This document shows, piece after piece, positions 6,634 to 27,414 of a stretch of 50,271 nucleotides of DNA. Each line of letters starts with the position of its first letter. The stretch's first letter is position 1. Where the stretch lies: NCBI GenBank assembly GCA_944326635.1, contig CALVEU010000003.1, positions 1-50,271 of the forward strand, written 5' to 3'. A program made the translations under genes and the position numbers. Origin of the DNA: Candidatus Gastranaerophilales bacterium (GTDB lineage Bacteria; Cyanobacteriota; Vampirovibrionia; Gastranaerophilales; Gastranaerophilaceae). A model generated the notes under the pieces. The model did not search any database and was not told the DNA's origin. It saw only the letters and a program-made list of their open reading frames with translations.

Positions 6634-7388
6634 TTATTTGTAATCATCTCCTTCTGTATAATTTTCATAATCAAGTTTGTCGTTGTAAAAGAATGAGTAA
6701 TTCCCATGTAGTTTATTAGGGTATACTCCTAGGTCAAAAGTATCAGCTCCAAACTGATTTGGACCTTTGCCTCCATTCACATCTACTTTTATTGCTCCAC
6801 ATCTGTTATCTTGGGTATTAATAATGATATCATTTCCGTTTTCATCTTTTACAATATTCCCTGCTTCGTCCCTTTTTGGATGGCTATTTACCCAATTGCA
6901 ACCGCTTTGCCTTTGATTAGTAAAGTTTTGAATAATAATTACACTGCCATCACTGAGAATTGCACTACTTGCTGTTCTCATATCAGAATAAACTGTTTTT
7001 CCATTTTGGAACTGTTTTTTGGGATATTTGGTTTTCCAAGAAATACAGCCACCTTTCCCTGATTTGCAGGTTTTTATAACTTTTAATTCTTTAGAGATAA
7101 TATCAAGTATTTCATCAGACGTTCTGTCTTTTTGAAAAAGATCTTCATAAGAATCAAGACCATTGTTAACTTTTGTCATTATTAATGCATTTGATAATGT
7201 AGAAAAAGAATTTTTAGTTTGGTTTATAAAAACTTTATTTTTGTAATTTGCAACCAAATTAGGCATAGTTAATGCAGCAACGATTCCAATAATACCAAGA
7301 GTAATTAAAACTTCTGCGAGAGTAAAAGCCTTAGAATAATCTATATTTTGCGGGGGGGGGGCACTCTCAAAGCTTCTTGTTTAAACAT
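6634..7388 (-). CDS. Prepilin-like protein A, gated by a C10 run (OFF in this sequence)
   Basis: This is a type IV pilin/pseudopilin-like gene. A GGAGG Shine-Dalgarno precedes ATG at 7388, which starts the leader MFKQEALRV followed by a run of ten C (coding strand). At length 10 the frame runs PPPRKI and stops at TAG. With 11 (or 8 or 14) it becomes a 251-aa protein: a 21-aa leader ending in DYSKA, the prepilin cut site before FTLAEVLITLGIIGIVAA, then a globular domain with several cysteines. Near the C-terminus is DVNGGKGPNQFGADTFDL, resembling the Ca-binding loop motif of pseudopilins. As sequenced, the first in-frame ATG past the run (7266) would lack the signal. rsgA follows in the same direction. 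The alternative is that slippage at the run makes some full-length product. Confidence 0.85.
7352..7361 (-). repeat. G10/C10 homopolymer in prepilin leader A
   Basis: Ten consecutive G on the plus strand (C10 on the coding strand) at codons 10-13 of prepilin-like gene A. One added base restores the frame through the pilin domain; lengths 9 and 10 both lead to early stops. Confidence 0.97.
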
Positions 7389-11429: not shown

Positions 11430-12161
11430 ATGAAAAAAGGTTTTACTCTTGCAGAAGTTTTAATTACTCTAGGTATTATTGGAGTAGTCGCATCAATGAC
11501 AATACCAACCTTAATAGCAAAACATCAAAAGGAAGTTGTTGCAACGTCTTTGAGAAAAGCTTATGCAGAGTTAAATTTGGCATTGCAAATGGCAATAAGT
11601 GATTATGGTGATGTTTCAACTTGGGATTATAGTAAAGCTTCAGAGATATCTTTATGGGCCGAAAAATACATTAAACCTTATTTTAAAATTTTAAATGCTC
11701 AAAATTGTTCGAATAATAGATCTTTTTCCTGCATAGGGGTTCCAGCAGTAGCTCAATTAGGATATGATACAAAACCAACAGGTATAATGTCGGCACCATA
11801 TGTAATATTAACTTCAGGAGGTGCCGCAAAAGCTTTTGCTTTTTATAAATATAATGCATATTCAGAAGTAAGGGTGCATGTTTATGTGAAATTACCCAAA
11901 AATAAAAAAGCTGAAAAGGGAAGGGATGTTTTCACTTTTGTATTAAAGCCTAATAAAACTGCGTTTGAACCTTTTGGTGTTACTGGAACTGTGCCTTTTA
12001 CAACAGGAAATATTTCAAGAGAAAAATTATTAAAAGGACCAATAAGGACGGGTGGCTGCTATAAAGAATCTGGAGGACCTGATTATTATGCTCCAGGTGA
12101 CAGTTGTGGTGCTGTAATAATGCTTGATGGCTGGAAAATTAAGTCTGATTATACTTGGTAA
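11430..12161 (+). CDS. Prepilin-like protein without homopolymer gate
   Basis: A 243-aa type IV pilin/pseudopilin-like protein. The ATG at 11430 is chosen over the one at 11418 because GGAGAG lies just before it and the result is a classic four-residue leader, MKKG, cut before FTLAEVLITLGIIGVVASMTIPTLI. The globular part has Cys pairs (NCSNNRSFSC, CYKE, SCGA) and ends in CGAVIMLDGWKIKSDYTW. That C-terminal block resembles the ends of genes C and D. Unlike those genes it has no G run and is in frame as sequenced, so it may be the constitutive member of the set. It lacks the DVNG loop but keeps a related GRDVFTF block. Confidence 0.9.
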   Translation: MKKGFTLAEVLITLGIIGVVASMTIPTLIAKHQKEVVATSLRKAYAELNLALQMAISDYGDVSTWDYSKASEISLWAEKYIKPYFKILNAQNCSNNRSFSCIGVPAVAQLGYDTKPTGIMSAPYVILTSGGAAKAFAFYKYNAYSEVRVHVYVKLPKNKKAEKGRDVFTFVLKPNKTAFEPFGVTGTVPFTTGNISREKLLKGPIRTGGCYKESGGPDYYAPGDSCGAVIMLDGWKIKSDYTW

Positions 12162-12726: not shown

Positions 12727-13475
12727 ATGAAATTTTTATTTAATTTTAACAAGTCGGGGGGGGGGCATTTTTAAGCTCCTTAAGTGGATTTACTCTGGCA
12801 GAAGTCTTAATAACTCTAGGTATTATTGGAGTTGTTGCAGCAATGACTTTACCATCTGTAATAAATAATATTCAAAATCGTCAACTTGAGGCCGGTTTTA
12901 AAAAAGGATATTCTGTTATCTCTCAAGCTCTTGATATGTATGCAGCAGAAAATGAAGAAAGGATTTCCACATTAAATTCTGGTTCTCAAGCTGGGATTTT
13001 AAAATTAGAATTTCAAAAGTATTTGAAAGTATCTTTTGTCGCAGATAAATTGGCTGCATTTTATGGTACTCATTGTATAGTTATTGGAAATAAGTATATA
13101 TTTTTTACTCCAGAGTATACTAATTTTCAAGGAGAAAAAATTAAAAGCATAGAAGATTTTAATGATGATGTTATTGTTTTGAGTGATGGTATGATGTTGC
13201 TATTTGAAAATGGTGCAAGTTGGAGCCATAATAGGTTATATGTTAGTGTTGATGTGAATGGCTTTAATAAACGTCCTAATCGGTTGGGCTTTGATTTATT
13301 TAGTTTCCAAATTGATGATAAAGGACGCTTACTTCCAATGGGAGCAAAGGGTACTGTTTATTATGATGAAAATGACAAATATTGCTCAAAATCTTCTAAT
13401 GAGGATCTAAATGGTATAGGTTGTACATATAAGGCAATGAGTGATAGTTCTTATTTTAAAAATTTAAAAAAGTAA
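12727..13475 (+). CDS. Prepilin-like protein B, gated by a G10 run (OFF in this sequence)
   Basis: A prepilin-like gene with AAGGAG eight bases before ATG at 12727 (another in-frame ATG at 12721 is too close to it). It starts MKFLFNFNKS and then meets ten G. As sequenced the frame reads GGGHF and stops at TAA 12772-12774. With 11 G it reads GGGAFLSSLSG, then the cut site and FTLAEVLITLGIIGVVAAMT, giving a 249-aa protein with a 21-aa leader. The mature domain contains DVNGFNKRPNRLGFDLFSFQ, the presumed Ca-binding loop, and two cysteines near the C-terminus. An ATG at 12843 inside the pilin helix could only start a signal-less fragment. Strong upstream promoter, good ribosome site and an intact downstream frame argue for a switchable gene over a decayed one. 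Confidence 0.85.
12756..12765 (+). repeat. G10 homopolymer in prepilin leader B
   Basis: Ten G on the coding strand at codons 10-13 of prepilin-like gene B, encoding glycine. One more base joins the start codon to the pilin frame. Confidence 0.97.
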
Positions 13476-17382: not shown

Positions 17383-18071
17383 TTAAATACGATAAGGGTA
17401 ATCTTTTTTTATTTCCCAACCATCAAATTCTATAATTGCAGAGCAAAGCCAGGGTTCATTTTTTCCACAAGAAATAAGAGTATTTTCCCGAGATTGGAGT
17501 ACCCGATTCCTTCCAAGAGGTGCAAATCCTTTAGAATATGAGAGGCTGTTTGAAATATTTAATAAAAAAGCAAATTGGTCATATCCTGCTTTATTTGGTT
17601 TTTTGTCTCCGTTTATATCGACATATATGTCAATTCCTCCACCTCTGTGGAATGCGATGGTAGTACCATTAACTAGTTTTATATAGAATAATTTTTCGTT
17701 ACCATTAATATTAATTGTTGTATTATTATTATTGTTTGCAATTCCTGTTTCAAGATATGTAATATATGGTAAAATGTATTTATTTGAAAATATCTCTAAA
17801 GAATTAGGAGTATTTTCTGGAATGTCCCAATATTCATAACTACCATTTTCAGATTCAGATAATTTGATTGCATTGTATAGAATGCTATAACTTTGTTTTA
17901 ATTGTGTTGCTACAACTTTTTTTCGATGATTTGCAATCAAGGTTGGTATGGTAAGAACAGCAACTACACCAATAATACCAAGAGTAATTAAAACTTCCGC
18001 GAGAGTAAAAGCCCTAGAATAACCTATGTTTCGCGGGGGGGGGGCACTCTCAAAGCTTCTTGTTTAAACAT
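17383..18071 (-). CDS. Prepilin-like protein C, gated by a C10 run (OFF in this sequence)
   Basis: A prepilin-like gene whose first 60 or so bases are nearly identical to gene A: GGAGG, ATG at 18071, MFKQEALRV and then ten C. As sequenced the frame reads PPPRET and stops at TAG. With 11 C it reads PPPPRNIGYSRA, then the cut site and FTLAEVLITLGIIGVVAVLT, giving 229 aa. The mature protein has DINGDKKPNKAGYDQFAFLL (presumed Ca-binding loop) and ends with CSAIIEFDGWEIKKDYPYRI, like the ends of the ungated gene and gene D. It lies directly behind mutS: its -35 box begins only two bases after the mutS stop. Confidence 0.85.
18035..18044 (-). repeat. G10/C10 homopolymer in prepilin leader C
   Basis: Ten G on the plus strand (C10 on the coding strand) at codons 10-13 of prepilin-like gene C, in the same position and context as gene A. 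Length 11 restores the full frame. Confidence 0.97.
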
Positions 18072-18125: not shown

Positions 18126-20702
18126 TTAATTGAATAAATTAAGTTGAGGAACTTCTACTGTTGGTGCATCTGTAGCTTTTTTGCGTGTTGCAAGATTATT
18201 TGAGTAATCTTTTTGCATTCTTGTCATTAATTCTTGGGATCTTTTGATTACTGCACTAGGAAGTCCTGCCATTTTAGCAACTTGGATACCGTAACTTTTG
18301 CTTGCTCCTCCTTGTACTATTTTACGCAAAAATTCAATTTCTCCGTTTTCTTCACTAATAGTAATTCTGTAATTTTTAATTTGCGGATAAGTTTTAGTCA
18401 TTACGTTTAATTCGTGATAATGAGTCGCAAAAATGCATCTTGCTTTGATTTTCGTTGCAATATATTCTGCAACAGACCAAGCTATTGCAACACCATCATA
18501 GGTGCTTGTGCCTCTGCCTATTTCATCAAGTAGAATGAAACTTCTTTCTGTTGCAGAGTTTAAAATGCAGGCTGTTTCAATCATTTCTACCATAAATGTA
18601 GATTGCCCTAATGTTAAATCATCAGATGCTCCTACACGTGTGAAGATTTTATCTATAACTCCGATTTTTGCATAATCTGCAGGAACCCATGATCCTATTT
18701 GTGCTAAAATCGCAATTAATGCATTTTGTCGCATATATGTAGATTTACCTGCCATATTAGGACCTGTTAATATCATAAATTGAGTAGAATCAGCAGAATT
18801 ACATTTTAATTCCAAATCGTTTGCTACATATTCACCAAGTGGAAGTATTTTTTCTAATACAGAGTGACGTCCGTTTTTTACAATAAAATCATCAGACTCG
18901 TCAATTATAGGTTTGCAGAAATTATTTTCTGCTGCTGTTTGTGCAAGACCTGTGTATACGTCACATTTTGCAATACAATCTGCTATTTCTCTAATTTTTG
19001 AAACAAACTCTTTTGAATATTCTCTAAAATCACAGAACAGTTTATATTCAAGTTCTGTAGATTTGAATTTCGCAGATAGTACATCATCTTCATGCTTTTT
19101 CAGTTCTTCTGTGATAAATCTTTCCCCGTTTGTAAGTGTTTGTTTTCTTATATAGCCTTCAGGAATTTGATTAAGATAAGAATTTGAAATTTCGATGAAG
19201 TAACCGAATACTTTATTAAAGCCTATTTTTAAGGATTTAATTCCTGTTCTTTCTTTTTCTTTTTCTTCAAAATCTTTTAGCCAATTTTCTCCGCCGGAAA
19301 GCAGTTCTCTAAAGTAATCCAGTTCTCCTGATACACCTTCTTTTATAATACCGCCCTCTTTGATTAGAGCTGATGCATTTTCAGAAATTGTTCTGTCGAT
19401 TAAATTAGTATATTCTGCAATTTCATCTTTATATTGTACAATTTGAGAAAGTGGGTTAAATTCAAGAGATTCTGTCGCATCTAATAAGTCAGGTAACATT
19501 ATTAAAGATGCTTTTAAACTTAGAAAATCTTTTGGGTTGGCTGAGCTGTTTGACATTCTTGTAGCAAGTCTTTGAATATCATAAATTTTTTCAAGCAAAT
19601 TAGAGATATTTATTCGCTCGTCTGTTTTTTCAACAAGTTCAGTAATACAATTTTGACGGCTTTGAATATCTTCAATTCTTTTTAACGGCTGACATATCCA
19701 ATTTTTAAGAAGTCTTGCTCCCATATTGGTTTTAGTTTTATCTACAGACCATAAAAGTGAACCGAATTTATTTTTATCTCTCAATGTTTCAGTAAGTTCA
19801 AGATTTTTTCTTGTGCTTCCGTCCAAAATCATATATTCAGAAAGCTCATAAGGCTCAATTCTTTCAAATTTTGGAACATTGTCTTTTAAAGTTTCCCAAA
19901 CATATGCAAGTAATGCTCCTGCAGCTCTAAAACCTATTTTGTATCTATCGTATCCAAATGATTCTAAGCTGTTTGCCTGGAATACTGCTTTAAGATTGTT
20001 TTCTGCAAAATTGGCATCAAATACTGAAGATGGTATTTTTGAACAGTTATAGATTTTTGTAATTTCTTCAGGCAAATTAATTTTTTCATCAGGTACAATT
20101 TGAAAAGGCATAATTTTTTGTTTTACTGATGGGCCTATAACTTCTGCAGGTGATATTCTTGTTAGTTCAGCTAAAATGAGTTCATAATTCGCTTGAGTAA
20201 CCTTAAATTCACCTGTTGATATATCAGCGTATGAAAATCCCCATATTCCGCTTTTTTCATCTTTGAATAATGCACAAATATAGTTATTAGAATTTTGTTG
20301 CAGAAAATCACTTTCAGTCAAAGTGCCTGATGTGATAATTCGAGTAACTCCTCTTTTGACAAGTCCTTTAGCAAATTTTGGGTCTTCCAACTGATCGCAT
20401 ATTACTACTTTGTAATTTTTTTGAACAAGTTTTTCAATGTAATTATTTACAGCTTTGGCAGGGATACCTGCAAGAGGAATTCTCCCAAATTTCCCTTGTT
20501 CTCTGCCTGTTAGAGTTAATTCCAATTCTTTGGACATAGTTACGGCATCTTCAAAAAATGTTTCGTAAAAATCCCCGAGTCTGTATAGCAGAATTTTATC
20601 CGGATTCTGGTGTTTAATTTTTAAATATTCCTGCATTGCAGGAGTTAAGTCCTCTACCTTAATATCAGCCGTATTGATATGATTGATTTCTGCCTTTTTC
20701 AT
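18126..20702 (-). CDS. mutS: DNA mismatch repair protein MutS
   Basis: MutS recognises mismatches and small insertion/deletion loops and starts repair with MutL. The 858-aa protein has the mismatch-binding domain with YRLGDFYETFFEDA (the Phe-x-Glu wedge motif, FYE), connector, lever and clamp regions. The ABC-type ATPase follows: Walker A TGPNMAGKSTYMRQ (about residue 640), STFMVEMIET and Walker B ILLDEIGRGTSTYDG. No truncation is seen, so this strain should be repair-proficient in MutS. ATG 20702 is chosen over an upstream reading; it has no Shine-Dalgarno, and TATACT (20715-20720) lies 12 bases upstream. Prepilin-like gene C follows directly. Confidence 0.97.
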   Translation of the reverse strand: MKKAEINHINTADIKVEDLTPAMQEYLKIKHQNPDKILLYRLGDFYETFFEDAVTMSKELELTLTGREQGKFGRIPLAGIPAKAVNNYIEKLVQKNYKVVICDQLEDPKFAKGLVKRGVTRIITSGTLTESDFLQQNSNNYICALFKDEKSGIWGFSYADISTGEFKVTQANYELILAELTRISPAEVIGPSVKQKIMPFQIVPDEKINLPEEITKIYNCSKIPSSVFDANFAENNLKAVFQANSLESFGYDRYKIGFRAAGALLAYVWETLKDNVPKFERIEPYELSEYMILDGSTRKNLELTETLRDKNKFGSLLWSVDKTKTNMGARLLKNWICQPLKRIEDIQSRQNCITELVEKTDERINISNLLEKIYDIQRLATRMSNSSANPKDFLSLKASLIMLPDLLDATESLEFNPLSQIVQYKDEIAEYTNLIDRTISENASALIKEGGIIKEGVSGELDYFRELLSGGENWLKDFEEKEKERTGIKSLKIGFNKVFGYFIEISNSYLNQIPEGYIRKQTLTNGERFITEELKKHEDDVLSAKFKSTELEYKLFCDFREYSKEFVSKIREIADCIAKCDVYTGLAQTAAENNFCKPIIDESDDFIVKNGRHSVLEKILPLGEYVANDLELKCNSADSTQFMILTGPNMAGKSTYMRQNALIAILAQIGSWVPADYAKIGVIDKIFTRVGASDDLTLGQSTFMVEMIETACILNSATERSFILLDEIGRGTSTYDGVAIAWSVAEYIATKIKARCIFATHYHELNVMTKTYPQIKNYRITISEENGEIEFLRKIVQGGASKSYGIQVAKMAGLPSAVIKRSQELMTRMQKDYSNNLATRKKATDAPTVEVPQLNLFN

Positions 20703-20705
20703 AGT

Positions 20706-20731
20706 TATAATAATAGTATAACATGATAAGG
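20706..20731. promoter_or_regulatory. Overlapping divergent promoters of mutS and the 20740 gene
   Basis: Only 37 bases separate the two starts. TATAAT (20706-20711) faces right and TATACT (20715-20720, minus strand) faces left. AAGGA at 20727-20731 is the ribosome site of the right-hand gene; mutS has none. Confidence 0.45.
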
Positions 20732-20739
20732 ATTTCAAT

Positions 20740-26623: not shown

Positions 26624-27414
26624 ATGAAAAAATCTTTAAAGTTTGAAACTCGGGGGGGGGGCGCTTTTTAGCTCCCAATTACTGTTTTGAAAGTTTGTTC
26701 AAAACTATAGTGTCGGCTCAAGCGGCACGCTTGGGGTTTACCCTTGCAGAAGTGTTAATTACATTAGGAATAATTGGAATCGTTGCAGCTTTGACTATTC
26801 CTCAATTAATTAGTGGCTATAAAAAGAGAGTCGTCGAAACTAAATTGCAGAAAGTTCATTCAATATTAAGTCAAGCGGTTCGTTTATCAGAAGCAGAAAA
26901 TGATGTGGCTGTAAATTGGGATTGGCCTGATAGTGTTGTTGATGAAGAAGGTCGAAACATCTTTTTTAATAAATATTTTAAACCATATATGAAAATTGTA
27001 GACGAGGAAAGAACCTATTTTAATGTATATAAACCTGATGGCACAAGAGATTATACAGAATGGCATACTTATTATAAGCTTTCTGATGGAACTTTTATTA
27101 GTTTTTATATTTCGTATAATGTTCATAGACACATTTATTATGCAAGTATTGAAGTAATATTACCTGGGACTAATAAAGATTATTTAATATCTGGAAAAGA
27201 TTACTTTAATTTTCAAATAAATGTATCTTCTGATAAGACTGCAGTATCAGTGTTTCCTTCTACATATGGAGGTTTGACTTGTGAGGGAATATCAAATAAT
27301 TTAAATTATTTTGTTGATAAATGTAAAACAGCTACACAAGGTGGGTATTATTGTACGGCTTTAATATATTGTAATGGCTGGAAAATCCCTGATTATTATC
27401 CTGTTAGATTTTAA
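26624..27414 (+). CDS. Prepilin-like protein D, gated by a G10 run (OFF in this sequence)
   Basis: A prepilin-like gene with AAGGAGCG just before ATG 26624 and the start MKKSLKFETR, followed by ten G. As sequenced it reads GGGAF and stops at TAG 26669-26671. With 11 G it continues GGGRFLAPNYCFESLF through AQAARLG, the cut site and FTLAEVLITLGIIGIVAALT, a 263-aa protein with an unusually long 38-aa leader. The mature part ends CTALIYCNGWKIPDYYPVRF, like genes C and the ungated gene. In place of DVNG it has SGKDYFNFQI. It converges on rpoC2 and shares a terminator with it. Confidence 0.85.
26652..26661 (+). repeat. G10 homopolymer in prepilin leader D
   Basis: Ten G on the coding strand at codons 10-13 of prepilin-like gene D. 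Adding one base brings the start into register with the pilin frame. Confidence 0.97.

Follow-up and report, generated by a model that had tools for sequence, protein, structure and literature searches.

Our analysis suggested that each long G run in the pilin genes of a Candidatus Gastranaerophilales bacterium is probably a length-variable frameshift gate, which lies in the cytoplasmic leader of a type IV prepilin and has OFF as its resting state. The window, namely the whole stretch of 50,271 nucleotides that was analysed, is contig C3 of the genome G000 (1.84 Mb, 92.6% complete, 149 contigs). The nearest relatives of G000 are Candidatus Gastranaerophilales MAGs, and its RsgA is 99% identical to that of BRZ_DM__bin106 (G007). 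Fetched stretches of G000 and sampled parts of G007 (C1, C2 and C3, chosen around runs) represented the two focal genomes. Further comparison sets were 12 other genomes of the genus and the pilins around rsgA in relatives (L-numbered loci).

The window (31.7% GC) contains exactly four G or C runs of at least 7, every one of length 10 and with G on the plus strand (7352-7361, 12756-12765, 18035-18044 and 26652-26661, in pilin genes A, B, C and D, respectively). Chance alone would give about 0.03 runs of at least G10 in the whole 1.84 Mb genome, and 76 runs of at least 9 were observed in the stretches of G000 that were read. All four runs of the window sit between an ATG with an upstream ribosome site and the prepilin cut. 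Gene A lies on the minus strand, with its ATG at 7388-7386, its leader at 7327-7388 and predicted removal before the Phe at 7326; the mature pilin (6634-7326, 230 aa plus stop) starts with FTLAEVLITLGIIG, and the run is read as C10 (Pro) in the gene. Gene B lies on the plus strand (leader 12727-12788; mature pilin 12789-13475, 228 aa plus stop). Gene C is again on the minus strand and reads C10 (leader 18010-18071; mature pilin 17383-18009, 208 aa plus stop), and gene D is on the plus strand (leader 26624-26736; mature pilin 26737-27414, 225 aa plus stop), with the palindrome CAAGCG-GCA-CGCTTG within its leader, before the cut. An ungated pilin is encoded on the plus strand of the same window (11430-12161), and its leader is MKKG (4 aa). 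A full-length mutS (18126-20738) directly adjoins gene C, so that mismatch repair is probably present in the organism, as judged from this gene.

At a run length of 11, the leaders read MFKQEALRVPPPPQNIDYSKA in A, MKFLFNFNKSGGGAFLSSLSG in B, MFKQEALRVPPPPRNIGYSRA in C and MKKSLKFETRGGGRFLAPNYCFESLFKTIVSAQAARLG in D (21, 21, 21 and 38 aa), each ending in G or A and followed by FTLAEV. The distance from the run end to the cut is 25, 23, 25 and 75 nt. The original prediction was right about the leader lengths of 21 and 38 aa and about the distance of some 25 codons in D, but the distance in A-C is about 8 codons rather than 8-12. None of the four genes is in frame at the present run length of 10; they are thus OFF, and translation stops just past the run (after PPPRKI in A, GGGHF in B, PPPRET in C and GGGAF in D); A, B and C would be ON at 8, 11 or 14. 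Between the run and the Phe, no in-frame ATG, GTG or TTG was found in A, B and C, and gene D has in-frame GTG or TTG codons only. In the AlphaFold model of mature pilin A (mean pLDDT 80.5), strands come after an N-terminal helix (3-54); a PDB fold search with this model gave no significant match.

The pilins turn over fast at fixed sites. The neighbouring RsgA is 99% identical to that of L120, yet the pilin at the gene A locus (6634-7388) is only about 54% identical, and the ungated locus (11430-12161) holds a different pilin in L120. The latter was considered as a gated orthologue of the MKKG gene and rejected, since only 76 of 217 positions of the mature part are identical.

The gated proteins have the features of type IV prepilins, i.e. 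G/A, then [FY]TLxE and a hydrophobic helix, and PF07963 matches were found among them. The residue before Phe or Tyr is G or A in all scored gated leaders of G000 and G007, and most mature parts start with FTLAE; the pilin search pattern itself required G or A codons before the cut, but the PF07963 search did not, and the same residues were seen in a further check. A single PF01478 match with CxxC pairs (G000:C9:27145-27534) encodes the prepilin peptidase. Class III prepilin leaders end in Gly or Ala, remain cytoplasmic and vary in length (PMC10191384). In the tabulated G000 gated genes, the run ends at least 22 nt upstream of the Phe codon, which places the repeat wholly upstream of the cut. 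The leader, whose cleavage we infer from these features, also evolves under far weaker protein constraint than the mature pilin. In 14 orthologous pairs, the leader had a pN/pS of 0.58 downstream of the run and of 1.65 upstream (few changes); the mature part had 0.19 at its N-terminus and 0.23 elsewhere, and the counts of leader and mature part differ (p=1e-6). Furthermore, mature pilins that are 97%, 95% and 90% identical carry unrelated leaders (C6:15597/C2:109329, C1:1689/C1:349038 and C99:2130/C3:202032, respectively). This indicates that leaders are interchangeable modules and that the mature pilin is independent of its leader; candidate places for the exchange breakpoints are FTLAEVLITLGII or the run. 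These data agree with the earlier claim that the run lies in the part to be removed and leaves the mature pilin unaffected, and the removed leader is predicted to shield the mature protein from changes of the run.

The putative gate is not restricted to the window. A run was present in the leader of 74 of 101 detected pilins in G000 and of 67 of 72 in the sampled parts of G007. The run lengths of the G000 gated pilins were 9 (3 genes), 10 (63), 11 (7) and 13 (1). G7-G8 runs are practically absent from G000; A and T runs taper smoothly. Length 10 was also found for 63 of 67 runs in G007 and 60 of 64 in the 12 other genomes. The ON length is 8/11/14 for 71 of 73 scored G000 genes, and this phase is reached via three reading frames in G-type leaders and two in C-type leaders, i.e. 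in both run orientations. As a result of length and phase, 66 genes were scored OFF and 7 ON in G000, 64 OFF and 2 ON in G007 (some starts are uncertain, and C1:537423 of G007 was counted ON via a doubtful ATG), and 4 of 64 ON in the 12 other genomes. OFF exceeded the expected two thirds significantly in all three sets (p=2e-6 for G000, 1e-9 for G007 and 2e-7 for the other genomes), with the caveat that paralogues are not independent. Thus a homopolymer occupies a frame-critical place between start and protein, as in slippage-type phase variation.

Differences between orthologues were observed as well: G11 (ON) versus G10 (OFF) twice, C13 versus C10, and G12 versus a run-less in-frame copy (GGGGGGTGGA) whose mature part is 99% identical. 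In the sister clade, the ON length is 10, run lengths spread over 8-12, and the genes are mostly OFF. Long G runs are scarce outside the genus. Within it, G013 and G023 have 0-1 G runs, and the gate system may have been lost there. The sole non-pilin run of at least 9 seen in G000 (C101:5768, G10) is in frame at 10 within another protein, and one additional G000 run sits in a stop-broken pilin (C66).

Gated leaders had been predicted to be longer than ungated ones across the lineage, and they are. In G000, gated leaders measured 18-76 aa (n=72, median 24) and ungated leaders 4-34 aa (n=23, median 7; p=1e-9); in G007, where the sample was chosen around runs, the medians were 41 (n=65) and 4 (n=4). 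Among the relatives, gated leaders around rsgA are all at least 20 aa, versus 4-9 aa in about two thirds of the 34 scored ungated leaders. Orthologous loci agree. At the gene A locus (clade support 100/100), the gated leaders have 21 aa (window) and 46 aa (L120), and the ungated ones 5 aa (L134), 7 aa (L151 and L157) and at least 24 aa (L135). Likewise, the gated L122 (54 aa) is sister to the ungated L124 (MKKG, 4 aa; support 100/99). L124 (FR900479.1) comes from a record named Fusobacterium sp. CAG:439, which groups with Gastranaerophilales by RsgA and is probably misnamed. Long leaders are therefore universal among gated genes, but not exclusive to them: 11 of the 34 ungated pilins in relatives exceed 15 aa (17-94 aa, often with inserted repeats).

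The runs are strictly oriented with respect to replication. All 144 runs of at least 9 in the two focal genomes have G on the leading strand, regardless of gene direction; the leading strand was assigned by the usual skew rule (the G-rich strand), not from a mapped origin. All 76 runs of G000 are on the GC3-rich strand, with no mixed contigs, and so are all 68 runs of G007, in domains whose orientation changes together with the GC3 skew. Among relatives, the rule is followed by 59 of 63 runs, and the 4 exceptions are in weak-skew stretches. The strand bias of runs of 3-4 is merely 1.3-1.7 to 1. About a quarter (24%) of gated genes carry C on the coding strand and read Pro. In the window, A and C point opposite to B and D; they read Pro and the latter Gly because G is always on the leading strand. 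Hence the choice of Gly or Pro follows from strand and does not reflect harmlessness alone. The polarity holds whichever way the gene points, and this links the run to replication, as opposed to transcription or translation.

The DNA around the runs is conserved as well. The motif C-G10-CA...GCTY is retained on the G strand whichever way the gene is oriented; in gene A it continues 3' of the run on the plus strand at 7362-7376 (CACTCTCAAAGCTTC, which encodes EALRV in the opposite direction), with equivalent sites at B, C and D. Of the G-type leaders 98%, and of the C-type leaders 94%, have GCT at about +9..+13 (shuffles gave about 5% and 3%), and the base immediately 3' of the run is C in 97/101 and 33/34 cases. 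Being kept in both gene directions and several reading frames, the motif is a DNA-level feature, possibly a mutability or recombination element. It could be argued that the run is mainly such a DNA-level site, for example one at which recombination shuffles the 5' modules of pilins, or what is left of a small mobile element, with the frameshift as a by-product. The retained motif, the strict replication polarity and the leader exchange between near-identical pilins would fit this. We nevertheless regard it as unlikely, because an ON phase that stays at 11 across three frames and either run orientation, and the confinement of nearly all runs to pilin leaders, are unexpected if coding is irrelevant; moreover, no recombinase was identified.

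Another explanation is programmed slippage with unchanged DNA, in which RNA polymerase adds a G or the ribosome slips back one base on a fixed G10, so that all pilins are made at a low and constant level. The focal clade fits this explanation in that its runs are almost all exactly 10 long and almost all of its genes lack one base. However, the run orientation follows replication. The mRNA carries G10 or C10 according to gene direction, with equal length and phase, and mRNA G and C runs should not behave alike, which argues against slippage by RNA polymerase or the ribosome. In addition, lengths of 9, 11, 12 and 13 occur, orthologues differ as 10 versus 11, and the sister clade varies over 8-12 around its ON length of 10. 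Programmed slippage is thus improbable to us.

The leaders were said to be extended only to hold the run, which is too narrow: long leaders also carry an old promoter or 5' region, palindromic inserts and in-frame ATGs, and occur in the ungated relatives described above. Many of them translate a promoter-like TTGTCA...TGTTATAAT (read CYNSD), followed by a GTGAT...ATCAC palindrome, and the leaders of L131 and L120 retain the old short leader (MTRFKG and MKKG) with a ribosome-site-like sequence. The promoter-like stretch in L131, L120 and the G000 long-leader class is a possible second promoter. Palindromic inserts were found in other long leaders. A hairpin repeat (HSEGEYPKESS...KSRNDRFG) is inserted in pilin leaders at C37:318, C48:4753, C83:1047 and C7:31104 of G000. 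Repeats of the FTLAE region (e.g. FTLAEGATHVD..RRVAFTLAEV) extend leaders of both ungated and gated pilins (L123, L126, L142, L164 and G000:C116:4755). An in-frame ATG follows the run in 11 of the 66 G000 OFF genes, and together with the old promoter and short leader in long leaders this means that some genes may leak. Thus the expected clean on/off switch is not supported for every gene. A conserved internal ATG of long leaders was rejected as a general bypass, since the codon varies (M, I or V). That there is no gate at all, and that an internal start after the run, served by the old leader promoter (TGnTATAAT), yields pilin at any run length, is suggested by the -35/-10-like elements, palindrome, ribosome-site-like sequence and old short leaders of L131 and L120, but is unlikely given that 35 of the 66 OFF genes have no in-frame start whatever before the Phe, that the internal codon varies and that A, B and C lack one downstream of the run; it could be true at most for some long-leader genes.

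The polarity, the near-fixed length of 10 with ON at 11, and the motif in both orientations favour default-OFF slippage during replication. Slippage during replication of the leading-strand G run would alter its length by one. At 8, 11 or 14, the ATG frame would join the pilin frame, and the prepilin would be made and enter the membrane, where prepilin peptidase would cut off the leader including the run, so that every ON length gives the same mature pilin from the Phe. At 9 or 10, translation would halt after the run. As most runs rest at 10 with the frame set to 11, the default would be OFF, and each cell would express few of about 70 gated pilins. Run length presumably changes at a useful rate in living cells, and the purpose would be a random choice of surface pilins. 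Several observations count against a gate: the run state was the same in 24 of 28 orthologous pairs of the two close genomes (different in 4 of 28), MutS is encoded beside gene C, 11 OFF genes of G000 have an in-frame ATG after the run, and run length, at exactly 10 in some 85-95% of genes, varies less than in the poly-G phasome of Campylobacter, with up to 81 phase-variable genes per strain (53% G9, 26% G10; PMC6321876).

Similar switches are known from other bacteria. Neisseria opa genes have CTCTT repeats in the leader-peptide region (PMC3960869), and the pilin genes resemble them in a slippage repeat in the removed part (removal being predicted here), a paralogue family switched singly and the same mature protein from every ON length (PMC3960869). 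They are unlike opa, with its pentamer repeat, Sec signal peptide and outer-membrane proteins, in that about 74 genes are involved, the repeat is G10 within a prepilin leader, and the runs show leading-strand polarity with a phase fixed at 'one short'. Neisseria pilC contains a genic G run of 9-20 and shares with our genes a coding G run, a link to pili and translational ON/OFF control, here predicted (PMC5953494); however, pilC encodes an adhesin or retraction factor rather than a pilin, has 1-2 copies and varies widely in run length. The gated proteins are prepilin-like without homology to opa (outer-membrane) or PilC, and would work like them without being members. The low-GC genome with many coding G runs is reminiscent of Campylobacter (PMC6321876), in which many gene types are involved, whereas here it is one gene family, with 24% C on the coding strand and 100% G on the leading strand. 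As for pilE/pilS antigenic variation in Neisseria, there is a pilin repertoire with sequence exchange, but instead of one expressed and many silent copies, most copies here have their own SD, ATG and gate. At GnT hotspots, G-run mutability requires the run 5'-3' on the leading strand (PMC12344412), as for our runs (144/144). These hotspots concern T to G substitution in Pseudomonas and Salmonella at G tracts that are short, with no demonstrated role in setting the length or phase of runs (PMC12344412), and the T immediately 3' of the run is missing here, with C instead (97/101, 33/34). In the literature searched, we found nothing on point for phase variation or pilin G runs in Gastranaerophilales or Melainabacteria, no account of such leading-strand polarity for phase-variable runs, and likewise no such scale within one pilin family, fixed length or common phase. 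Thus the repeat in a removed leader is already known (opa, few Neisseria genes), and the scale, polarity, fixed length and common phase were not found described.

In conclusion, our results extend the idea of a repeat in a cleaved leader to about 74 pilin genes in a single gut bacterium and to most of its genus, in an uncultured order. The polarity, a length that hardly varies and the shared 'one short' phase form rules open to testing, through which a default-OFF antigen repertoire is connected with replication-strand mutability. We tentatively suggest, as a possibility short of an even chance, that G10 and its constant flanks (C-G10-CA...GCTY) form a mutability element oriented by replication. 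This element would need G on the leading strand, would be kept at 10 by the copying machinery and would have been placed either way into pilin leaders, with the phase repeatedly set so that rest is OFF and one added base is ON. If true, this element would be a genome-wide stochastic selector of the pilin repertoire.
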